NCBI GenBank assembly: GCA_958295735.1
Contig: OY282369.1
Coordinates: 1,472,161-1,536,160 of the forward strand
Direction of reading: 5' to 3'
DNA from: an uncultured Candidatus Cenarchaeum sp.
GTDB taxonomy: Archaea > Thermoproteota > Nitrososphaeria > Nitrososphaerales > Nitrosopumilaceae
Length of the DNA: 64,000 bases
How positions within the stretch are numbered: position 1 is the stretch's first letter; every line of letters starts with the position of its first letter. Shown here one piece after another: positions 23,007 to 56,007 of this stretch. Under the pieces are notes generated by a model that ran no database searches, was not told the DNA's origin, and saw only the letters and a program-made list of their open reading frames with translations. A program made the translations under genes and the position numbers.

Positions 23007-23239
23007 TAGGGCGGCGCCCTGCCTGCGGGGCCGCATGCCCGTTGGACGCCGGCGCGAAAGCGGCCCCGCCGCTCCGCATCCGCGCCTGCGGGGCGGGAGC
23101 CGCCTGCCCCGCGCCGCCCGGCCCGCAGCTCGGGCTTTGCGGGAAACCGCCGCGCCGCCGGCGCGGCCGCGGGACGGACTGGCGGCGCCAACCTCGGGCG
23201 CGGCTGCCGGGCGGGCCGGCCGCGCCCCCTGCCGCGGCA

Positions 23240-24286: not shown

Positions 24287-26365
24287 ATGAGGCGGTCCCG
24301 GATGCGCGCCGTGGCTCTTGGAGCCTTTCTCGCGCTCGCCGCCGGGCTCGCCCCGGCCTCGGAGGCGCAACAGAGCCTCACGCTGGACGGGGTGTTCGGC
24401 AATGACGACGTCCTCGTGTTTCGCGGGACGGGCGAGCCGGGCATCGCCGTCAGCGTGGGGATATACTCGCCGGCGGGCGATCACATCAAGCTGTTCAGCG
24501 CGATTCCTGGTCCCGACGGCGCGTTCGAAACGCTCGGCCAGCTGACGGTGTCCGACGTATTCGGCGCCCGCGGAACGTACGAGGCGCGGCTGGGCCTTAC
24601 CCCTGACGAGGCTCCGTCGCTCCGGATAGAATACGACGGGCAGAGGGCCTACGTGGTGCCGGACTACGTGGTGGATCTGGTCCCGATGGGCGGGAACATG
24701 AGCGTGGAGGCGGGCGAGGCCCTCTCGTTCACGGCCAAAATCACCGACGGTTCCCTGCGCGGCGTGGTGTACGGCCTGGAAGGCAACGTGCCGGCCGGCG
24801 CGTCGATCGGCGCGTCCGACGGCCGGTTCGCTTGGATCCCGGTGCCCTTGCAGGGTAGCGCGCAGGGATCCGCATACACGTTCGACGTGGTGGCCACCAA
24901 GGAAGTACTGGAGGACAGGCAGTCGGTCACGGTGGTAGTGTTTGCGGCAGCGCCAGAGCCCGGGCCGGAGCCGAGTCCAGCGGCAGCGCCAGATCCCGCC
25001 CCATCCGATGTGGCGCCTCCGGCGTTCGTCGAGCCCGGCGTGGACCCCCAACAGTACGTCGACAGGTACGAGTCGGAGCCGGCCTTCCGGCAGTGGTTCG
25101 ACGAGAACTTTCCCGGCGTGACGATCCACGCGGCCGTCGGCCTTCCCGAACCCGTCCCCCGCCCCGCGTTCGTCGAGCCCGGCGTGGACCCCCAACAGTA
25201 CGTCGACAGGTACGAGTCGGAGCCGGCCTTCCGGCAGTGGTTCGACGAGAACTTTCCCGGCGTGACGATCCACGCGGCCGTCGGCCTTCCCGAACCCGTC
25301 CCCCGCCCCGCGTTCGTCGAGCCCGGCGTGGACCCCCAACAGTACGTCGACAGGTACGAGTCGGAGCCGGCCTTCCGGCAGTGGTTCGACGAGAACTTTC
25401 CCGGCGTGACGATCCACGCGGCCGTCGGCCTTCCCGAACCCGTCCCCCGCCCCGCGTTCGTCGAGCCCGGCGTGGACCCCCAACAGTACGTCGACAGGTA
25501 CGAGTCGGAGCCGGCCTTCCGGCAGTGGTTCGACGAGAACTTTCCCGGCGTGACGATCCACGCGGCCGTCGGCCTTCCCGAACCCGTCCCCCGCCCCGCG
25601 TTCGTCGATCCGGAAAGGGATCCGAGGTACTACGTGGCGCGGTACGATGCGGAGCCGGCCTTCCGGCAGTGGTTCGACGAGAACTTTCCCGGCGTGACGA
25701 TCTACGAGGCGGCCGGCACCAACGAGTCGGCCATGAACCGGACCGCCTTCGGCCAGTGCGGGATAGGCACGCGGCTGGTGGGCGGGGAATGCGTGGCGCC
25801 CGATCCGCCCCCGATCGAGGCGGGCCCTGAGCCGCCCGAGCCGGAGCCAAAGCCCGCGGCGCCCGAACCCCCGCCCCCGCCCCGGGATCCCAGGCCCGGC
25901 GGCTGCCTGATCGCCACGGCGGCGCACGGCTCGGAGATGTCCCAGCAGGTCCAGATGCTGCGCGAGGTGAGGGACCGGACGCTGCTGTCCACCGCGTCGG
26001 GGGCGGGATTCGCGGACGGCTTTAACGCGCTGTACTACTCGTTCTCGCCCGCGGTGGCCGATGCCCAGCGGGAAAGCCCGCTTCTCCGGGAGGCGATCCG
26101 GGCCCTGATCGCCCCGATGCTCCTCTACCTGTCCGTGATGACCCTGGCGGAGGAGGGCTCGGAGGCCCACGTGGTCGCGGCGGGGTCTGCCGCCATCGCG
26201 CTCACGCTGGGCACGTACGTGGCAGCCCCCGTGCTGGCCGCGGCGGGCGCCGCTAGGCTGGTCCGGTCCAGGCGGCGCCGCCCGGAGGCGGGCTCCGGGG
26301 CCCGGCGGCCGCCCGGCCGAAAACCCCCGTCCCCGACCTTGTTTAATAGCGGCGGAGTGGGGTAA
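24287..26365 (+). CDS. Secreted/surface CFI-box protein with 48-residue repeats
   Basis: 692 residues. A signal peptide (residues about 1-27, [19 protein letters not shown]) is followed by Ig-like beta domains (about 30-220, including a putative-Ig cadherin-like stretch), then a repeat region with four nearly identical 48-residue units and one diverged unit (each with [20 protein letters not shown]). A Cys-containing link ([15 protein letters not shown]), a Pro/Glu spacer and a C-terminal domain with the CFI-box signature [14 protein letters not shown]...[10 protein letters not shown] complete it, with hydrophobic segments and a basic end (RSRRRRP). Probably exported and membrane-anchored. 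Function unknown. Confidence 0.82.
25020..25700 (+). repeat. 144-bp coding tandem repeat, about 4.7 copies
   Basis: Units start at about 25022, 25166, 25310, 25454 and 25598. The first four are identical or nearly so at the DNA level; the fifth is diverged in its first half ([17 protein letters not shown]) but shares the [10 protein letters not shown] core. Identity at silent sites indicates recent amplification or gene conversion. Confidence 0.92.
26340..26349 (+). promoter_or_regulatory. TATA box of the giant repeat protein gene
   Basis: TGTTTAATAG, centred about 25 nt before the ATG at 26370; it lies inside the last codons of the preceding gene. Confidence 0.6.
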
Positions 26366-26369
26366 GCGC

Positions 26370-29300
26370 ATGGCAAAATGGGCCGACTACCTCGTATCTG
26401 CCGCCTCCTACCTGGAGGGCAGGCAGGTGTCGCTTTTGAGGCGGCACCGCGACGAGGGCGGCAGGATAGCGCCGGGCGAGCTGGTCGACAAGGCCACCGT
26501 CGCTACCGAGATCAGCAAGGGGGCCTCATACATGACGATCTACAGCGCGGCATCCAACTGGACGCCGGGAAGCAGGATCAGGCTGTTCCGCGCCGAAGGC
26601 AGCTACTACCTGAGGACTGACGCCAACTCCGTCTGCTACGACAACCTCGGCCCGCTTCCGGACATACCGGAAGGCCGGCCTGCCCCCGCCGCGGGCGGGG
26701 GGGACGGCAAGCGGCAGCCGGGCGCCGGGGCGGCCGGCGCGCCGCAACCCCGACCAATGTCCCGTGGCGACAAGGAGATGCTCGCGGGCATGGGGGCGAG
26801 CGCGCCGGGGTCGACGGCCCCGCCCGCGCCGCAACCCCCCCTCGTGCCCGTTGCGGACCCCCGCGCCCCGCGCGAAAAGCCCGAGCCCGCGCCGCCTCCC
26901 GCCGCCAAGTCCCGGCGGGAGATCCTCGACGAGTACGAAAAGGAATACCTCGGCAGGATCGGCGCCGACGATCTGGAGGCCGGTCCTCCAGCCGGTCCTG
27001 AAACGCCCGATCTGGAACCGGAGCAAAAGCCCGGGCCCCCTGAACCGGAGCAAAAGCCCGCCCCGGCGCCGGAGCCCGAACCCGAGTCTCCGCACGGCAC
27101 GCTCCCCAAGGGCATGTCGGCCCCGCCTCCCGCGAAGCAGCCGGAGCCCGAACCGGAACAGGAGCCCGAGCCCGCGCCGCCTCCCGCCGCCAAGTCCCGG
27201 CGGGAGATCCTCGACGAGTACGAAAAGGAATACCTCGGCAGGATCGGCGCCGACGATCTGGAGGCCGGTCCTCCAGCCGGTCCTGAAACGCCCGATCTGG
27301 AACCGGAGCAAAAGCCCGGGCCCCCTGAACCGGAGCAAAAGCCCGCCCCGGCGCCGGAGCCCGAACCCGAGTCTCCGCACGGCACGCTCCCCAAGGGCAT
27401 GTCGCCCCCTCCCCCCGAAGAGCCGTCGGCGCCCGCCCCCGAGCCCGCGCCGGAGCCCGAACCCGAGTCTCCGCACGGCACGCTCCCCAAGGGCATGTCG
27501 CCCCCGCCTCCCGCGGAGCAACCAAAGCCCAAACCGGAGCCCGAACCCGAGTCTCCGCACGGCACGCTCCCCAAGGGCATGTCGGCCCCGCCTCCCGCGG
27601 AGCAGCCGGAGCCCGAACCGGAACAGGAGCCCGAGCCCGCGCCGCCTCCCGCCGCCAAGTCCCGGCGGGAGATCCTCGACGAGTACGAAAAGGAATACCT
27701 CGGCAGGATCGGCGCCGACGATCTGGAGGCCGGTCCTCCAGCCGGTCCTGAAACGCCCGATCTGGAACCGGAGCAAAAGCCCGGGCCCCCTGAACCGGAG
27801 CAAAAGCCCGCCCCGGCGCCGGAGCCCGAACCCGAGTCTCCGCACGGCACGCTCCCCAAGGGCATGTCGCCCCCTCCCCCCGAAGAGCCGTCGGTGCCCG
27901 CCCCCGAGCCCGCGCCGGAGCCCGAGCCCGCCCCGGCGCCGGAGCCCGAGCCCGCCCCGGCGCCGGAGCCCGAGTCTCCGCACGGCACGCTCCCCAAGGG
28001 CGTGTCGCCCCCGCCTCTCGCGGAGTCCCCGAAACCCGAGCCCGCCCCCGCCCCGGCGCCGGAGCCCGAGCCCGCCCCGGCGCCGGAGCCCGAGTCTCCG
28101 CACGGCACGCTCCCCAAGGGCATGTCGCCCCCTCCCCCCGAAGAGCCGTCGGTGCCCGCCCCCGAGCCGGCGCCGGAGCCCGAGCCCGCCCCGGCGCCGG
28201 AGCCCGAGTCTCCGCACGGCACGCTCCCCAAGGGCATGTCGCCCCCGCCTCCCGCGGAGTCCCCGAAACCCGAGCCCGCCCCCGCCCCGGCGCCGGAGCC
28301 CGAGACCGCCCCGGCGCCGGAGCCCGAGTCTCCGCACGGCACGCTCCCCAAGGGCATGTCGCCCCCGCCTCCCGCGGAGTCCCCGAAACCCGAGCCCGCC
28401 CCCGAGCCCGCGCCGGAGCCCGAGACCGCCCCGGCGCCGGAGCCCGAGACCGCCCCGGCGCCGGAGCCCGAGTCTCCGCACGGCACGCTCCCCAAGGGCA
28501 TGTCGCCCCCGCCTCCCGCGGAGTCCCCGAAACCCGAGCCCGCCCCCGCCCCGGCGCCGGAGCCCGAGACCGCCCCGGCGCCGGAGCCCGAGACCGCCCC
28601 GGCGCCGGAGCCCGAGTCTCCGCACGGCACGCTCCCCAAGGGCATGTCGCCCCCGCCTCCCGCGGAGTCCCCGAAACCCGAGCCCGCCCCCGAGCCCGCG
28701 CCGGAGCCCGAGACCGCCCCGGCGCCGGAGCCCGAGACCGCCCCGGCGCCGGAGCCCGAGTCTCCGCACGGCACGCTCCCCAAGGGCATGTCGCCCCCGC
28801 CTCCCGCGGAGTCCCCGAAACCCGAGCCCGCCCCCGCCCCGGCGCCGGAGCCCGAGACCGCCCCGGCGCCGGAGCCCGAGACCGCCCCGGCGCCGGAGCC
28901 CGAGACCGCCCCGGCGCCGGAGCCCGAGTCTCCGCACGGCACGCTCCCCAAGGGCATGTCGCCCCCGCCTCCCGCGGAGTCCCCGAAACCCGAGCCCGCC
29001 CCCGAGCCCGCGCCGGAGCCCGAGACCGCCCCGGCGCCGGAGCCCGAGACCGCCCCGGCGCCGGAGCCCGAGTCTCCGCACGGCACGCTCCCCAAGGGCA
29101 TGTCGCCCCCGCCTCCCGCGGAGTCCCCGAAACCCGAGCCCGCCCCCGCCCCGGCGCCGGAGCCCGAGACCGCCCCGGCGCCGGAGCCCGAGTCTCCGCA
29201 CGGCACGCTCCCCAAGGGCATGTCGCCCCCGCCTCCCGCGGAGTCCCCGAAACCCGAGCCCGCCCCCGAGCCCGAGACCGCCCCGGCGCCGGAGCCCGAG

Positions 29301-30359
29301 TCTCCGCACGGCACGCTCCCCAAGGGCATGTCGCCCCCGCCTCCCGCGGAGTCCCCGAAACCCGAGCCCGCCCCCGAGCCCGAGACCGCCCCGGCGCCGG
29401 AGCCCGAGTCTCCGCACGGCACGCTCCCCAAGGGCATGTCGCCCCCGCCTCCCGCGGAGTCCCCGAAACCCGAGCCCGCCCCCGCCCCGGCGCCGGAGCC
29501 CGAGACCGCCCCGGCGCCGGAGCCCGAGACCGCCCCGGCGCCGGAGCCCGAGTCTCCGCACGGCACGCTCCCCAAGGGCATGTCGCCCCCGCCTCCCGCG
29601 GAGTCCCCGAAACCCGAGCCCGCCCCCGCCCCGGCGCCGGAGCCCGAGACCGCCCCGGCGCCGGAGCCCGAGACCGCCCCGGCGCCGGAGCCCGAGTCTC
29701 CGCACGGCACGCTCCCCAAGGGCATGTCGCCCCCGCCTCCCGCGGAGTCCCCGAAACCCGAGCCCGCCCCCGCCCCGGCGCCGGAGCCCGAGACCGCCCC
29801 GGCGCCGGAGCCCGAGACCGCCCCGGCGCCGGAGCCCGAGTCTCCGCACGGCACGCTCCCCAAGGGCATGTCGCCCCCGCCTCCCGCGGTGTCCCCGAAA
29901 CCCGAGCCCGCCCCCGAGCCGGCGCCGGAGCCCGAGTCTCCGCACGGCACGCTCCCCAAGGGCATGCCGCCCCCTCCCCCCGAAGAGCCGCCGGAGCCCG
30001 GGCCCGCCCCAGAACCAGAACCCGGGGCCGCGCCGGCGGCCGCGCCCGAACGGCCTAGCGACCGACAGGGCACCGAAAACATCCCGGCGGCCGCATCCTC
30101 GGCGCGCGATATCGAGGACCAACTGGCGGATCTCAAAAAACAACTGGCCGAGGTCTCGGAACGCGGCGACGCCGACGCCGGCGGCGTCGCGCCTCCGAGA
30201 ATCGCGGCATACTGCATGAAGTGCATGTCCAAGCGCGACGTGCGGGATCCCGTCCAGTCGGCGACGAAGAACGGCCGCCCGGCCGTCAGGGGAACGTGCT
30301 CGGTCTGCGGCGCCAGGATGTCCCGAATGGGAAGGCTGGCCGGCGCGGCGGGCAGGTAG
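26370..30359 (+). CDS. Giant Pro/Glu/Ala repeat protein with DUF3892-like head and zinc-ribbon tail
   Basis: 1329 residues. Residues 1-97 form a DUF3892-like domain closely similar to the small protein at 22673-22975. Residues about 170-1225 are extreme low-complexity sequence: 21 copies of [11 protein letters not shown] (rarely V), separated by Pro/Glu/Ala runs of variable length, plus three copies of a segment beginning [21 protein letters not shown] short coiled coil ([17 protein letters not shown]) precedes a C-terminal zinc ribbon ([14 protein letters not shown]...[11 protein letters not shown]) of the DUF5679 type. No signal peptide or membrane segment, so cytoplasmic. It may be a scaffold with many identical binding motifs. 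Function unknown. Confidence 0.82.
26880..29990 (+). repeat. Nested coding minisatellite of the giant protein
   Basis: Repeats of two kinds are interleaved: a unit encoding [20 protein letters not shown] with Pro/Glu/Ala linkers whose lengths differ by multiples of 24 bp (ETAPAPEP modules), and three copies of a longer unit around 26900, 27190 and 27660. DNA identity between units is very high. Confidence 0.92.
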
Positions 30360-40867: not shown

Positions 40868-42505
40868 TTGGCATCAATCCAGCAGACACCACAAGGGCCG
40901 GTACTAGTGCTGAAGGAGAGCGCACTGCAGCAGAAAGGCCGCGACGCGCAGCAGAACAACATATCGGCGGCCAAGCTGGTGGCCGAGCTCGTCCGCACTA
41001 GCCTGGGGCCCCGCGGCCTTGACAAGATGCTGGTGGACTCGCTGGGCGACGTTACGATAACAAACGACGGGGCGACCATCCTGAAGGAGATCGACGTGCA
41101 GCACCCGGCCGCCAAGATGATGGTGGAGATATCGAAGGCCATGGACAACGAGGTGGGCGACGGCACCACCTCCTCCGTGGTGTTCGGCGGGGCGCTCCTG
41201 GCAAAGGCCGAGGAACTCCTCAAGAAGGACGTGCACTCGTCAGTGATTGTAGAAGGCTACCAGGCGGCGGCCGAGAGGTCGCTGGAGGTGCTAGAAGCCA
41301 TGTCCAAGACCATAGCCCCCGAGGACAAGGCATCGTTGCTGAGCGTGGCGAGCACCAGCATGCAGTCGAAACTCATATCGGAAGACAGCAACGCGCTGTC
41401 CAGGCTAGTGGTGGATGCTGTCCTCAACGTGGCGACCCGCAAGGGCGAGGAGCGCGCCGTGGACCTTGACAACATAAAGGTGGAGAAAAAGTCCGGCGGC
41501 TCCATAAACGACACGCAGCTCATAAAGGGCATGGTCCTGGACAAGGAAGTGGTGCACAGCGGCATGCCAACCCGCATAGACAACGCCCGCATCGCCCTGC
41601 TCAACGCGGCCATGGAGGTGGAAAAGACCGAGATGAGCTCCGAGATCCGCATCAGCGACCCGACCCAGATGCAGATGTTCCTCGAGGAGGAGAACCGCAT
41701 GCTCCGCTCGATGGTGGACAAGGTGCACGATGCCGGCGCCAACGTCCTGCTGTGCCAAAAGGGCATAGACGACATTGCCCAGCACTACCTGGCCAAGAAC
41801 GGCATACTGGCAGTGCGGCGCGTCAAGGAGAGCGACATGACGAAGCTCGCAAAGGCCACCGGCGGCAGGGTCACCACGAACATTGACGATCTGGTGTCGG
41901 GGGATCTGGGCAACGCCGAGACGGTCCAGCAAAAGAAGGTAGAGTCTGACAAGTGGGTGTTCGTGGAGGGGTGCGACAACCCCCAGTCGGTCACCCTGCT
42001 GATACGGGGCGGCTCCCAGAGGGTCGTGGACGAGGTCGACCGCTCCATGCACGACGCCCTGATGGTCGTAAAGGACGTAATTGAAAAGCCCGCCATAGTG
42101 GCAGGCGGCGGCGCGGCCGAGTCGTACATAGCCTCGCAGCTAAAGTCGTGGGCCGAAAGCTTTGACGGCAGGGAGCAGCTGGCAATCAAGCAGTACGCGG
42201 AGGCCCTTGAGCAGATCCCGCTCACCATAGCCGAGAACGCCGGCATGGATCCCATAGACACCATAGCCAGCCTGCGCTCGAAGCAGAGCCAGGGCAAAAA
42301 GTGGGTCGGGATAGATGCCAGAAACACCCAAGTGTCGGACATGCTGATGATCGAGGTGATCGAGCCCGTCGCCGTCAAGGAGCAGATCATAAAGTCGGCC
42401 ACCGAGGCCGCCTGCATGATACTCCGCATCGACGACGTGATAGCCGTATCCGGAGGGGACGGCGGCTCCGGCGGAGGGCCGCCCGGCGGCCCGCCGCCCA
42501 TGTAG
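40868..42505 (+). CDS. ths: Thermosome subunit (group II chaperonin)
   Basis: 545 residues forming the double-ring archaeal chaperonin. Conserved: SLGPRGLDKMLVD, VTITNDGATILKEID, VGDGTTSSVV (ATP site), VLLIRGGSQ-like TLLIRGGSQRVVDEV, VAGGGAAE and a Gly/Pro tail ending GGPPGGPPPM. TTG at 40868 gives ASIQQTPQGPVLVLKESA, the start I expect in this group; TTG at 40859 adds three residues and fits the promoter spacing better. Codon use is noticeably less GC-extreme than in the neighbours, as in a highly expressed gene. A 70-bp tandem array follows the stop. Confidence 0.96.
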   Translation: MASIQQTPQGPVLVLKESALQQKGRDAQQNNISAAKLVAELVRTSLGPRGLDKMLVDSLGDVTITNDGATILKEIDVQHPAAKMMVEISKAMDNEVGDGTTSSVVFGGALLAKAEELLKKDVHSSVIVEGYQAAAERSLEVLEAMSKTIAPEDKASLLSVASTSMQSKLISEDSNALSRLVVDAVLNVATRKGEERAVDLDNIKVEKKSGGSINDTQLIKGMVLDKEVVHSGMPTRIDNARIALLNAAMEVEKTEMSSEIRISDPTQMQMFLEEENRMLRSMVDKVHDAGANVLLCQKGIDDIAQHYLAKNGILAVRRVKESDMTKLAKATGGRVTTNIDDLVSGDLGNAETVQQKKVESDKWVFVEGCDNPQSVTLLIRGGSQRVVDEVDRSMHDALMVVKDVIEKPAIVAGGGAAESYIASQLKSWAESFDGREQLAIKQYAEALEQIPLTIAENAGMDPIDTIASLRSKQSQGKKWVGIDARNTQVSDMLMIEVIEPVAVKEQIIKSATEAACMILRIDDVIAVSGGDGGSGGGPPGGPPPM

Positions 42506-42530
42506 GCTCCTGCCTCCGTTCTGCCTCCCG

Positions 42531-43037
42531 GCGCGCCTGCAAGATTATCCATCCCGGCACGCCGGTCCTCCCCCGTAGCCCCGTCGTCTACGGTAGCCCG
42601 GCGCGCCTGCAAGATTATCCATCCCGGCACGCCGGTCCTCCCCCGTAGCCCCGTCGTCTACGGTAGCCCGGCGCGCCTGCAAGATTATCCATCCCGGCAC
42701 GCCGGTCCTCCCCCGTAGCCCCGTCGTCTACGGTAGCCCGGCGCGCCTGCAAGATTATCCATCCCGGCACGCCGGTCCTCCCCCGTAGCCCCGTCGTCTA
42801 CGGTAGCCCGGCGCGCCTGCAAGATTATCCATCCCGGCACGCCGGTCCTCCCCCGTAGCCCCGTCGTCTACGGTAGCCCGGCGCGCCTGCAAGATTATCC
42901 ATCCCGGCACGCCGGTCCTCCCCCGTAGCCCCGTCGTCTACGGTAGCCCGGCGCGCCTGCAAGATTATCCATCCCGGCACGCCGGTCCTCCCCCGTAGCC
43001 CCGTCGTCTACGGTAGCCCGGCGCGCCTGCAAGATTA
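42531..43037. repeat. 70-bp perfect tandem repeat array, 7.2 copies
   Basis: Units begin at 42531, 42601, 42671, 42741, 42811, 42881 and 42951, with a partial unit from 43021 (GCGCGCCTGCAAGATTAT). The full copies look identical. Each holds the less GC-rich core CAAGATTATCCATCCC, a palindrome-like CCGGCACGCCGG and a hairpin CCGTAG-N9-CTACGG. The 70-bp period is not a multiple of three, so the array is not coding. There are no spacers. It starts 26 bp after the thermosome stop. Confidence 0.95.
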
Positions 43038-43265
43038 TTCCTCCCCGCAAGACGGCCTGCCGCGCAACCGCAGCCGGCCGCCGCGCGCCCGCGTCCTCCC
43101 GCAGATTGCGCGGAGCCGCTAGGTTGCCCCGTTGCCGGGCGCGGCTTTGGCCGGGGAAAGCGCATGCTCCGGCCGCCTGGCGGCGGCCTGCGTCACAACC
43201 GCGCCCGCGGCGCGGCGGTTTCCCGCGCCCGAAAACGGCGTTGCGGTATAGGCCGCGGGCAGGCA
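43038..43265. other. Intergenic region after the 70-bp array
   Basis: About 230 bp up to the ROK kinase promoter, GC-rich, with no gene recognised. Together with the array it makes a non-coding stretch of almost 800 bp. Confidence 0.5.
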
Positions 43266-43267
43266 AG

Positions 43268-43276
43268 CCTTAAGAG
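43268..43276 (+). promoter_or_regulatory. Promoter box of the ROK kinase gene
   Basis: CCTTAAGAG, centred about 27 nt before the ATG at 43298; weaker than most others. Confidence 0.45.
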
Positions 43277-43297
43277 CCGAACCGCCTCGTCGGGGGC

Positions 43298-44287
43298 ATG
43301 GGCCGCCGCCCCGCCGCCAGTCCCGGATCCCGCGGGCGGCGGCCGCCCTGGCCCCTTCCCGCCGCCGGCGCGGCGCGGGGCCGGCTCCGCGTGGGGATAG
43401 ACTTGGGCGGGACGAAGACGGAGGGCATCCTGCTGGACGTCGGCGCCGGCGGCCGCGGGACGGTGGTCAAGCGCAAGCGCATCCCCACCCCGAGGGAGGG
43501 CGGGTACGGGGAGGTGCTCGCGGCCGTGGCCGCGCTGGTCATCGAGCTCGCGGGGGAGAAGAGATGCTCGGTGGGCGTGTGCTCGCCGGGGACGGCGCCG
43601 GGCGGGGGCGCGGGGGCGGTGAGGAACAGCAACACGCGGTGCCTGGAGGGCAAGCCGTTCCGGAAAGATCTGGAGATGCTCCTCGGCCGCCCCGTCGCCC
43701 TGGAGAACGACGCCAACTGCTTCGCGCTGGCCGAGGCCGCCTTGGGCGCCGGCAGGGGGCACGAGACGGTATTCGGCGCCATCCTCGGGACGGGCGTGGG
43801 GGGCGGCATCGTGCACGGCTGCCGGATGCTGCGCGGGCGGGGCGGCGCGGCGGGGGAATGGGGCCACCACGCGCTGCACCCCGGCGGCAGGGCGTGCTAC
43901 TGCGGGAAAAAAGGCTGCGCCGAGGCGTACCTGTCCGGGCCCGCCCTGGAGGAACTCTGGGTGGAAGAGGTCGGCCCGCCCCGCATGGCCCTCCGCGACA
44001 TAGTGGCATCGCTGGCGCCGGCCGGCCGGCGGGCGCGCGCCCCCCATCCGGGCGCCGCGCGCTGGAAGGCGCGGTTCCTGGACGACTTTGGGGCCGGCGT
44101 GGCCAACGTGATAAGCGTGCTGGATCCGGATGCCGTGGTGCTGGGGGGCGGGGTGTCCAACGTGGAGTTCCTGTACGGCGAGGGGCGCGACTCGGCGCGC
44201 GCCCGCGCCTTCGGGCCGTGCGACACCCCCATACTGCGCAACGAACTGGGGGACTCGGCCGGCGTCTACGGGGCCTGCATGATATAG
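43298..44287 (+). CDS. ROK-family sugar kinase
   Basis: 329 residues. ATP-binding GIDLGGTKTEGILL, sugar-binding ENDANCFALAEA, GAILGTGVGGGIV with a zinc site HHALHPGGRACYCGKKGCAEAYLSG, and VLGGGVSN near the end. Typical ROK members phosphorylate glucose, fructose or N-acetyl sugars; specificity cannot be read here. A 28-residue Arg/Pro/Ala-rich extension precedes the conserved start; the promoter box supports ATG 43298. Convergent with guaA. Confidence 0.9.
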   Translation: MGRRPAASPGSRGRRPPWPLPAAGAARGRLRVGIDLGGTKTEGILLDVGAGGRGTVVKRKRIPTPREGGYGEVLAAVAALVIELAGEKRCSVGVCSPGTAPGGGAGAVRNSNTRCLEGKPFRKDLEMLLGRPVALENDANCFALAEAALGAGRGHETVFGAILGTGVGGGIVHGCRMLRGRGGAAGEWGHHALHPGGRACYCGKKGCAEAYLSGPALEELWVEEVGPPRMALRDIVASLAPAGRRARAPHPGAARWKARFLDDFGAGVANVISVLDPDAVVLGGGVSNVEFLYGEGRDSARARAFGPCDTPILRNELGDSAGVYGACMI

Positions 44288-44294
44288 GCCGCGG

Positions 44295-45815
44295 CTACTG
44301 CGGCTCGATGGTGGACGGCGGCTTGCTGGACACGGCGTACGTGACCCAGGCCGCGCCGTCGACCTCGTTGGTTATCCTGTTGCTGACTGCCTCCAGCACG
44401 CCGTGGGGCAACCGCGTCCAGTCTGCCGTCATGGCGTCCACCGAGTCGACGACCCGCACGGTGACCACGCGCCCGTACAGCCGCTCGTCGCCCACCACCC
44501 CGACGGCCCTGTCGTCGCCCACGGCGGCGTACGCCTGCCACACCTCCCGGTACAGGCCGGCCTTCTCGAGCTCCTCCTCCACTATGGCGCTGGCATCCCT
44601 GCAGATGCGCAGCTTTTCGGCCGTGACCTCGCCCATCACGCGGACGGCGAGGCCGGGTCCCGGAAACGGGTGCCTGCCGATCAGCCCCTCCGGGACCCCC
44701 AGGACGGCGGCCACCCTCCTCACCTCGTCCTTGTACAGGTCCCTCAGGGGCTCCAGCACCCCCATGCCCAGGTCCTCCGGCAGCCCGCCCACGTTGTGGT
44801 GCGACTTTATCACCGAGGCCGGCCCCTTGGAAACGCCGCTCTCGATGACGTCCGGGTACAGCGTCCCCTGCGCCAGCCACCTGAACGGGCCGTTGGCCTC
44901 CGCGAACTCCGAAAAGGCCGCCGCGAACTCCTCGCCGACGGCCAGGCGCTTCTCCTCCGGGTCGGCCACCCCTTCCAGCCTGGACAGGAACCTGCCCGCC
45001 GCGTCCACCCTGTGGAACCGGACGCCGAAGTTGTCCCGGAACATCGCCTCTATGCCGTCGGCCTCGCCCCTGCGCAGCAGGCCGTTGTCCACGAAGACGC
45101 ACGCGAGCCTCCCGCCCGCGGCCCTGTGTATGAGCAGGGCCGCCACGGTCGAGTCTATGCCGCCGCTCACGCCGCACAGGATCCCGCCCTCCGTCGCGCC
45201 TATCTTCCTCACGGACTCCTCCACGAACGCCTCCATGGTCCACTCCCTCCGGGCGCCGCATATGCGCACCGCGAAGTTCTCCAGGACGGCCGCGCCCCCC
45301 TCCGTGTGGGCCACCTCCGGGTGGAACTGTATGCCGTACACCGACCTGTCCCTGTCCGCGATGGCCGCCGCGGCCGCCGCCCCCGTGTGGCCTATGACGC
45401 TGAACCCGGCCGGCACCGCCTCCGCCTCGTCGCCGTGGCTCATCCACGCCCTGGTGCCGCCGCCCAGCCCCCCGAGCAGGTCGCCCCCGTCGTCCACCGT
45501 GAGCCGCGCCGAGCCGTACTCCCTGTTGGCCCGCTTCACCTTCCCGCCGAACCTGTCCACTATCACCTGGTGGCCGTAGCATATGCCCAGCACGGGCACC
45601 CCGAGCCCGAATATCCCGGCATCCGGCAGCGGCGCGCCGTCCTCGTACACGCTGGCCGGCCCGCCCGACAGTATTATCCCCCTGGCCTCCGGCCCGATCT
45701 CGGCGGCCGGCGTGTCGTGCGGGACGAGCTCGGCGCGCACCGAGGCGTCCCTTATCCTGCGGCAGATGAGGTGGCTGTACTGGGAGCCGAAGTCCAGCAC
45801 CGCGATCCTGTCCAC
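44295..45815 (-). CDS. guaA: GMP synthase (glutamine-hydrolysing)
   Basis: 506 residues, fused bacterial-style form. The N-terminal class I amidotransferase domain has the nucleophile in GICYGHQV and the HPEV motif (FHPEVAHTEGG). The ATP pyrophosphatase domain has the PP-loop GVSGGIDSTVAAL, and the dimerisation domain has FPGPGLAVRVMGEV. It converts XMP to GMP, downstream of GuaB encoded at 50940. Many archaea split this enzyme into two subunits; here it is single. GTG start lies 4 nt after the stop of the coiled-coil protein gene. Confidence 0.96.
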   Translation of the reverse strand: MDRIAVLDFGSQYSHLICRRIRDASVRAELVPHDTPAAEIGPEARGIILSGGPASVYEDGAPLPDAGIFGLGVPVLGICYGHQVIVDRFGGKVKRANREYGSARLTVDDGGDLLGGLGGGTRAWMSHGDEAEAVPAGFSVIGHTGAAAAAAIADRDRSVYGIQFHPEVAHTEGGAAVLENFAVRICGARREWTMEAFVEESVRKIGATEGGILCGVSGGIDSTVAALLIHRAAGGRLACVFVDNGLLRRGEADGIEAMFRDNFGVRFHRVDAAGRFLSRLEGVADPEEKRLAVGEEFAAAFSEFAEANGPFRWLAQGTLYPDVIESGVSKGPASVIKSHHNVGGLPEDLGMGVLEPLRDLYKDEVRRVAAVLGVPEGLIGRHPFPGPGLAVRVMGEVTAEKLRICRDASAIVEEELEKAGLYREVWQAYAAVGDDRAVGVVGDERLYGRVVTVRVVDSVDAMTADWTRLPHGVLEAVSNRITNEVDGAAWVTYAVSSKPPSTIEPQ

Positions 45816-54172: not shown

Positions 54173-54520
54173 CGGCGCGGGCCCGCCGGGCTGGGAGAGC
54201 CGCCCCCGCCGCATCCCCCTTCCCCGCAACCCGCCGCCCCCGGCCCGGCCCCCGGGCGGCGGAGGGCGCGGGCGGCCGTGGCGGAATGCGCGGGGCCGAA
54301 GTGTTGCGGAATGCGCGGGGCCGGAAAGCGGGGCGCCGGGAAAAAGGCGCGGGCGGCCGGGGCGGAATGCGCGGGGCCGCCAGTGTTGCGGAATACGCGG
54401 GCCGGGGATCCCGGCGCCGGGAAAAAGGCGCGGGCGGCTCTGGGATCCCGGCGCCGGGAACGCGCCGCGGCGGGGCCGTTCCGCGCCTGCGCGGATGCCG
54501 CCCGCCCCGCGCAATCCACA
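54173..54520. repeat. GC-rich interleaved direct repeats upstream of tiaS
   Basis: From about 54266 to 54465, blocks containing GGCGCGGGCGGCC, GGCGGAATGCGCGGGGCC and GCGCCGGGAAAAAGGCGCGG recur two to three times in shifting combination (for example at 54267 and 54347). No gene is recognisable in the 375 bp between mptE and tiaS. Confidence 0.7.
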
Positions 54521-54548: not shown

Positions 54549-55931
54549 TTGCGCGCGGCTGGCGGGGGGAAGAATGGCGGCGGGGCGACCCTGCTCTCCA
54601 TCGGCATCGACGACACGGACTCGGCCGAGGGCATGTGCACCACGTACCTCGGGTTCATGCTGGCCGCGGAGCTGCTTGAAAAAGGAGAGGCCGGGTTCGC
54701 CTCGTACCCGCGGCTGGTCCGCCTCAACCCCAACGTGCCGTGGAGGACGCGGGGCAACGGGGCCGTCGGGCTGAGGGTGCTGACGGACGATCCCGGCGCG
54801 GTGAAGGAGAGGGCGATCGGCCTCGTGAGGCGCTGCTCGGACGTCAAAAACGGCGCGAACCCGGCCGTCGCGTTCTGCGAGGGCGAAGTTCCGGCGGAGC
54901 TGGCCGCGTTCGGCCGCGCGGCGCTGTGGCGGCTGCTCCCCCGGGCGCGCGCCCTGGAGGCGGCCGAGCGGCACGGCTTGGAGACGTTCCGCATGGGGAA
55001 CGGCCGGGGGCTGGTCGGCGCCGTGAGCGCCATCGGGTACGAGTTCGGCGACAGCACGCTGGAGATCCTCGCGTACAGGGAGCGGGGCAGGTTCGGCACC
55101 GCGAGGGCCGTCTCGCCGGAGAGCGTCAGGCTCATGCATGAGCGGACGCGCCCGCGCACTTTCAACAGCTACGACGAGGAGAAGCGCCGCGCGCTCGTCT
55201 CGCCGCGCGGGCCCGATCCCGTCCTGTACGGGATAAGGGGGGAGGATCCGGCCGTGCTGCTGGCCGCCTCGCGGTCCGTGGATGCCGGGGAGCCGCTGGC
55301 CGGCTACATGATGTTCCAGTCGAACCAGGGTACGGGCGACCACCTGGCCCACGAGCTCGGGGAGCGGGACGCGGTGCCGCACGCGTCGGGGACGGTCACC
55401 GGCACCGTGTCCGGCCCGCCGCGCGTGGGGCCGGGCGGCCACGCGTACTTCGAGGTGGCCGCGGCCGGCGCGCCCGCCGGCAGCCGCCCCCCCGTCCGCT
55501 GCGCCGCGTACAAGGAGTCGGGGCTGGCCGGCTGCGCCGCGGCCATGCGCGGCGGCGACGCGGTGAGGGCGGGGGGCGGGATCCGGCGCGCCGCCGCCGG
55601 CCACCCCCGCGTGCTCAACGCGGAGTTCCTGGAGATCCTGGACCTGGCGCGCCCGACCCGCGAGGCCAATCCCGCGTGCGGGCGCTGCGCCAAAAGGATG
55701 AAGTCCAAGGGCGCGGGGCAGGGATTCAAGTGCATCAAGTGCGGGAGCAGGGCCGGCTCCAAGGTGGCCGAGGCCGTCCCGCGGCGCCTGCGCAGGGGAC
55801 TGTACCTTCCCCCCGCATCGGCGCAGCGGCACCTGGCGCGCCCCCTGCAGCGGCAGGGGGTGACCAATGCGGTGGGGTTCGACGGCTCGGTGGCGTGGAT
55901 CGGGAGGTTTGAAGTTGATAGCGGGGAGTAG
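54549..55931 (+). CDS. tiaS: tRNA(Ile2) 2-agmatinylcytidine synthetase TiaS
   Basis: About 460 residues. TiaS attaches agmatine to C34 of tRNA-Ile2 (CAU) so that it reads AUA. Seen in order: SIGIDDTDSAEGMCTTYLG, LNPNVPWRTRGNGAVGL, the central catalytic region SNQGTGDHLAHEL, an OB-fold part (VSGPPRVGPGGHAYFEV), and a C-terminal zinc ribbon (CGRCAKRM..CIKCGSRA). The start is uncertain; TTG at 54549 fits an AT-rich box at about 54520. The last 13 bp overlap the 3' end of the opposite-strand tRNA. Confidence 0.92.
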   Translation: MRAAGGGKNGGGATLLSIGIDDTDSAEGMCTTYLGFMLAAELLEKGEAGFASYPRLVRLNPNVPWRTRGNGAVGLRVLTDDPGAVKERAIGLVRRCSDVKNGANPAVAFCEGEVPAELAAFGRAALWRLLPRARALEAAERHGLETFRMGNGRGLVGAVSAIGYEFGDSTLEILAYRERGRFGTARAVSPESVRLMHERTRPRTFNSYDEEKRRALVSPRGPDPVLYGIRGEDPAVLLAASRSVDAGEPLAGYMMFQSNQGTGDHLAHELGERDAVPHASGTVTGTVSGPPRVGPGGHAYFEVAAAGAPAGSRPPVRCAAYKESGLAGCAAAMRGGDAVRAGGGIRRAAAGHPRVLNAEFLEILDLARPTREANPACGRCAKRMKSKGAGQGFKCIKCGSRAGSKVAEAVPRRLRRGLYLPPASAQRHLARPLQRQGVTNAVGFDGSVAWIGRFEVDSGE

Positions 55932-56007
55932 ATTTGAACTACTGATTTGCGGGTTATGAGCCCGCCGGGATGACCTAGCCCTTGGCGACTGACTTCCCCA
56001 CCCCGCT
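55919..56007 (-). tRNA. Initiator tRNA-Met (CAT) with enlarged D-loop
   Basis: The acceptor stem AGCGGGG (56007-56001) pairs with CCCCGCT (55926-55920). The anticodon arm is GCGGG-CTCATAA-CCCGC and the T-arm AGTAG-TTCAAAT-CTACT. The A1:T72 pair and three G:C pairs in the anticodon stem identify the initiator. The D-arm region is about 14 nt longer than normal (extra AGTCGCCAAGGGCT or a shifted equivalent), which would make an abnormal D-loop unless removed as a small intron. CCA is not encoded. TATA box at 56031-56038. Confidence 0.88.

Follow-up and report, generated by a model that had tools for sequence, protein, structure and literature searches.

The spacer between the thermosome and ROK-family genes of this Candidatus Cenarchaeum genome carries a tandem array of 70-bp units, which is most likely a young, largely neutral, single-locus non-coding minisatellite and one of many here. 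This reading draws on the identity of the copies, their confinement to a single locus, their absence from the relatives examined and a spacer that is larger than in the relatives measured, as well as on the surplus of comparable arrays in the portion of the genome that was sampled and on the preference of arrays within genes for periods that are multiples of three.

The genome is assembled as a single contig of 3,166,131 bp, and the window, i.e. the whole stretch of 64,000 nucleotides analysed here, has a GC content of 71.3 %. The gene order around the array is an adenine-deaminase-like gene, the thermosome gene, the array, the ROK-family gene and, on the opposite strand, guaA. The thermosome (group II chaperonin) subunit gene lies at 40868-42505 on the + strand, with a probable TTG start and the stop codon at 42503-42505 (Pfam Cpn60_TCP1, E 2.1e-188), and its residues 1-531 share 83 % identity with a same-genus protein. 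The ROK-family gene, probably encoding a sugar kinase, occupies 43391-44287 on the + strand (Pfam ROK, E 3.6e-61); its start at 43391 is assumed from the alignment, and an alternative in-frame ATG is present upstream at 43298. It is followed by a guaA-type GMP synthase gene on the - strand (44295-45815, Pfam GATase and GMP_synt_C). Measured to the aligned ROK start, the spacer between the first two genes spans 885 bp (42506-43390).

Within this spacer, exact 70-bp periodicity extends over 42527-43038 (512 bp), with seven identical units followed by the initial 22 bp of another; Tandem Repeats Finder (TRF) reports 42527-43049, with 7.5 copies at 99 %. The array sets in 21 bp past the thermosome stop codon, it lies outside called genes and its period is not a multiple of the codon length. 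An initial annotation had described seven identical 70-bp units plus a partial one behind the thermosome gene, with a non-codon period, at 42531-43037; all of this agrees with the exact periodicity, the coordinates being correct to within four bases. Each unit contains an inverted repeat and a core that is richer in AT, and the head-to-tail arrangement, a unit in the range of approximately 10-100 bp, the high identity and the single locus are the features by which minisatellites are recognised. Prokaryotic minisatellites or VNTR loci are built in the same way, from almost identical units, each tens of bp in length, that follow one another head to tail at a single locus.

Bases 23-45 of the eighth copy (43039-43061) still match the unit in register at 15 of 23 positions. 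Because this level of match is rare, being seen in 29 out of 37,776 overlapping non-repeat intergenic 23-mers, the stretch is probably a decayed continuation of the eighth copy. On the left flank, no comparable decayed copy was detected (19 of 70 positions in register). The 3′ coding end of the thermosome gene at 42406-42420 resembles part of the unit in a local match (14 of 16 columns identical), and judging from this resemblance it is a possible source of the repeat seed.

A search of the complete 3.17-Mb genome with a three-unit query returned four matches, all of them in the array or at its end. No match to the unit was obtained in 40 relatives at E <= 0.001, nor in plasmid and phage records, and the 21-base inner stem-loop had no exact match in viral contigs. 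In a search of the genus (two genomes), the unit was confined to the genome under study, with the same-genus relative (G001; 2,045,086 bp) being devoid of it. Apart from the seven units, the pattern CCGTAG-N3-20-CTACGG occurs at just one position in the genome, whereas its backward control yields 37 occurrences per strand. The search for the unit elsewhere in the genome and in relatives, which the initial annotation had proposed, thus points to a single locus, and this rules out a dispersed repeat family, REP-like or mobile. In the part of the literature that was covered, no title dealt with this array or with how heavily Cenarchaeum-like genomes are loaded with tandem repeats.

Comparison of the locus across relatives shows how unusual the size of the spacer is. 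A ROK match occurs near the thermosome gene at 57 of 110 loci, a count that includes our own loci, paralogues and contig ends. Spacers were measured at 56 of these, skipping one where ROK lies on the other strand (L086); leaving out one nonsensical negative value (L067) and the window itself (L085), the set consists of 54 loci, some of which may stem from near-identical genomes. The spacer measures 16-104 bp in 49 of them and 195-411 bp in the remaining five, and only 20 bp in G001, against 885 bp here, of which the array contributes 512. Judged by eye, TRF arrays were present inside the spacer at none of the 54 loci. Additionally, the coding fraction obtained with one home-made gene caller is 75 % in our sample and window together, 81 % in G001 and 84 % in a further relative (G003); it is lowest in the genome under study, and enlarged spacers therefore look like a general trait of this genome.

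The array is by no means isolated. Defining near-perfect arrays as those with at least three copies, at least 98 % match and a period of at least 10, we found 34 in a 380-kb sample of the same genome (stretches L115-L133) and four in the 64-kb window, i.e. 38 in 444 kb or approximately 86 per Mb. Samples of 380 kb yielded three such arrays in G001 and six in G003, corresponding to approximately 11-fold and 5-fold lower densities. Order-1 and order-3 Markov controls derived from the sample, 380 kb each, contained no near-perfect array, and an array like the 70-bp one is therefore far beyond chance. At a stricter cut (at least four copies, at least 99 % and a period of at least 20), 18 arrays remain in the sample and one, the 70-bp array, in the window, with none in G001 and two in G003. 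In a published survey of satellites (PMC6749651), more than four satellites per Mb are called rare, although the definition may differ and the densities are not comparable.

High GC content alone does not seem to be the cause of this excess, because 200 kb of bacterial plasmid DNA with 65.5-69.4 % GC were free of near-perfect arrays. A plasmid stretch from Natrialba (59.7 % GC) contained two in 50 kb, approximately half the density found here, and hence the excess is not unique. These high-GC controls comprise five plasmid stretches from three records, plasmids being an imperfect stand-in for chromosomes. For sponge-associated relatives, a genome study (PMC7848895) reports a GC content of 47-67 % in 7 of 11.

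The periods of the arrays follow the reading frame. Amongst the near-perfect arrays, the period is divisible by three in 20 of the 21 coding cases, whereas this holds for 3 of the 17 non-coding ones (Fisher p 9e-7); the single coding exception has a period of 43 bp (L124), and the gene that contains it may be false. Genes in the sample were called with a home-made codon-usage caller, and comparison with annotation covered the flanking genes. Such a bias is expected if arrays arise everywhere and the frame-breaking ones in genes are subsequently removed, and a tendency of coding-array periods towards multiples of three is also a trait of prokaryotic minisatellites (compare the satellite survey PMC6749651). 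The 17 non-coding arrays are distributed over seven tandem, five convergent and four divergent spacers, with one undetermined. Since near-perfect arrays are frequent both inside and between genes, the position of the 70-bp array behind the thermosome gene needs no special explanation.

In the process that we envisage, a 70-bp stretch of the thermosome-ROK spacer would have been duplicated, and slippage during replication and/or unequal recombination would then have raised the number of copies and maintained their identity; the copy number may be variable. The initial suggestion of recent amplification or homogenisation fits the seven identical copies and the relatives examined, which are without the array. 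Some observations speak against this reading: amongst the 17 near-perfect non-coding arrays, none is longer and none with a period of at least 40 has more copies, and the unit folds better than most of its shuffles.

With regard to folding, the initial annotation had singled out a hairpin, CCGTAG-N9-CTACGG, in each unit. The stem is indeed present in all seven units, but it is merely the inner part of a longer, nested imperfect hairpin, located in the first unit at 42556-42607 (inner stem-loop 42573-42593) and recurring every 70 bp, seven times in all. As a special hairpin the 6-bp stem was dismissed, since stems of at least 6 bp are common by chance, both in shuffled units (168 of 500) and in non-repeat intergenic 70-mers (313 of 600). 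In the register that displays the complete hairpin, a choice that flatters the z-score, the fold is equalled by only 1 of 200 dinucleotide shuffles on the + strand and by none of 200 on the - strand. When the best of 10 rotations is taken for the unit and for each shuffle, these numbers rise to 6 of 200 and 1 of 200, respectively. Two joined units gave z values of -4.5 and -5.0 for RNA and of -2.2 and -5.2 for DNA, which are inflated because shuffling joined units also destroys the repetition. Amongst intergenic 70-mers, again at the best rotation, 27 of 60 are at least as stable as the unit and one of 60 has a z as low. For a sequence of its composition, the unit is thus moderately more self-complementary than expected, which could reflect selected structure.

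Hairpins are not a general explanation for the formation of these arrays. We examined 15 non-coding arrays with a period of 28-120, at least 2.5 copies and at least 95 % match, the 70-bp array included, and on the + strand two of them reached a z of -2 or below, the 70-bp array and L117:4442-4741. Because the other 13 of the 14 remaining arrays do not reach -2 and the z values, with only the unit shuffled before it is repeated, are -1.62 for the 70-bp array and range from -1.90 to 1.32 in the full set of 17 near-perfect non-coding arrays, hairpins as the general cause were rejected. According to a study on Pyrococcus abyssi polymerases (PMC4134008), both PolB and PolD undergo slippage in vitro when the template forms a hairpin and contains short direct repeats, and PCNA inhibits this slippage. 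By analogy, the hairpin may have helped slippage at this particular array.

The functional roles proposed initially, a transcription terminator or 3′ UTR array, a recombination or segregation site and a protein-binding array, gained no support, given the lack of a T-run, the single locus, the absence of conservation in the relatives searched and the distance from Orc1/Cdc6. An array that forms or protects the 3′ end of the thermosome mRNA through its nested hairpins and separates the ROK gene from it would account for the onset 21 bp after the stop codon and for a hairpin that beats its shuffles; moreover, with spacers as short as those of relatives, the two genes may at one time have shared a transcript. 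We nevertheless regard such a role as unlikely, as the fold energy of the unit is ordinary for this genome, the corresponding spacers of relatives lack an array and convergent spacers account for just five of the 17 non-coding arrays, which reveals no general tie to gene ends. Archaeal intrinsic terminators are T-rich, with a T run near the transcript end, and the + strand at 42500-43400 contains no run of four or more T, which sets the array apart from them. The perfect tandem repetition, the inverted repeat and the AT-richer core also recall iteron-like or dif-like sites for replication, segregation or a binding protein, and within the window the cumulative GC skew, taken in 4-kb steps, reaches its minimum at 48-52 kb, some 5-9 kb away from the array. 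The ORB repeats of archaeal replication origins lie close to an orc1/cdc6 gene. Here, the sole Orc1/Cdc6 match above cut-off is approximately 185 kb away, and a second, at approximately 34 kb, is weak and partial (20.1 bits against a cut-off of 181.3), and the skew across the genome, sampled in the window and in 19 stretches of 20 kb, varies patchily and does not clearly peak or dip at the array. An origin or terminus at this place is hence unsupported: although the array shares tandem direct repeats and an inverted element with iteron- or ORB-type origins, it has no close Orc1/Cdc6 neighbour, is absent from the relatives examined, including the same-genus genome, and is one of many look-alikes, which makes a site of this type a highly improbable explanation.

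Assemblies often give tandem arrays the wrong size, and the true number of copies could differ from seven and a fraction. That the array is an artefact of this kind is very unlikely, as 512 bp is shorter than a typical long read, the single-contig genome suggests that long reads were used, and assembly error would not yield 38 arrays with periods following the reading frame. CRISPR arrays, too, have a regular period and end in a partial, decayed copy; however, all 70 positions are identical across the seven units, hence there are no differing spacers, and CRISPR was ruled out. Searches of the array against Rfam returned no family at threshold, the one sub-threshold match being at chance level and outside the array. 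Elsewhere in the window, ARAGORN predicts a tRNA-Gly of 103 nt at 23119-23221, possibly with an intron, for which Rfam has no hit at threshold; conversely, a tRNA-like match at 55927-55982 comes from Rfam alone.

Taken by itself, the minisatellite behind the thermosome gene is an ordinary one that might serve as a strain-typing marker; of more interest is the load of arrays across the genome, the cause of which was not found. It is conceivable, though less likely than not, that new minisatellites arise unusually often in this lineage and enlarge spacers such as that between the thermosome and ROK genes, owing to a change in replication or recombination. If so, perfect arrays of differing sequence would be arising in genes and spacers alike at the density observed. 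Loss of repair genes was considered as a cause, the genes searched being NucS and MutS. NucS was found in 5 of the 25 genomes searched (four above cut-off), these not including our genome, G001 or G003, and MutS domain V in none of 11 genomes. As G001 and G003 also lack them and yet hold few arrays in their samples, the lack of NucS and MutS is not by itself the cause. A genome with such an unusually high load of young tandem arrays lends itself to the question of how repeat expansion is controlled in archaea that have no detectable NucS or MutS.

The arrays in the sample differ widely in dimensions, examples being a 21-bp unit in 102 copies (L126:6442-8586), a 29-bp unit in 14.4 copies (L127:1408-1825) and a 111-bp unit in 6.0 copies (L129:10034-10703). 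In the window, a non-coding 36-bp unit is repeated 3.6 times at 100 % identity (2417-2545), shortly after a tRNA-Leu gene (2312-2399), and an imperfect 81-bp tandem duplication is present at 54265-54438 (2.1 copies, 89 %). A long repeat region with 144-bp units (25022-25717) and a second region, in which nested repeats have periods divisible by three and Pro and Glu codons abound (26878-30010), probably encode large repeat proteins.
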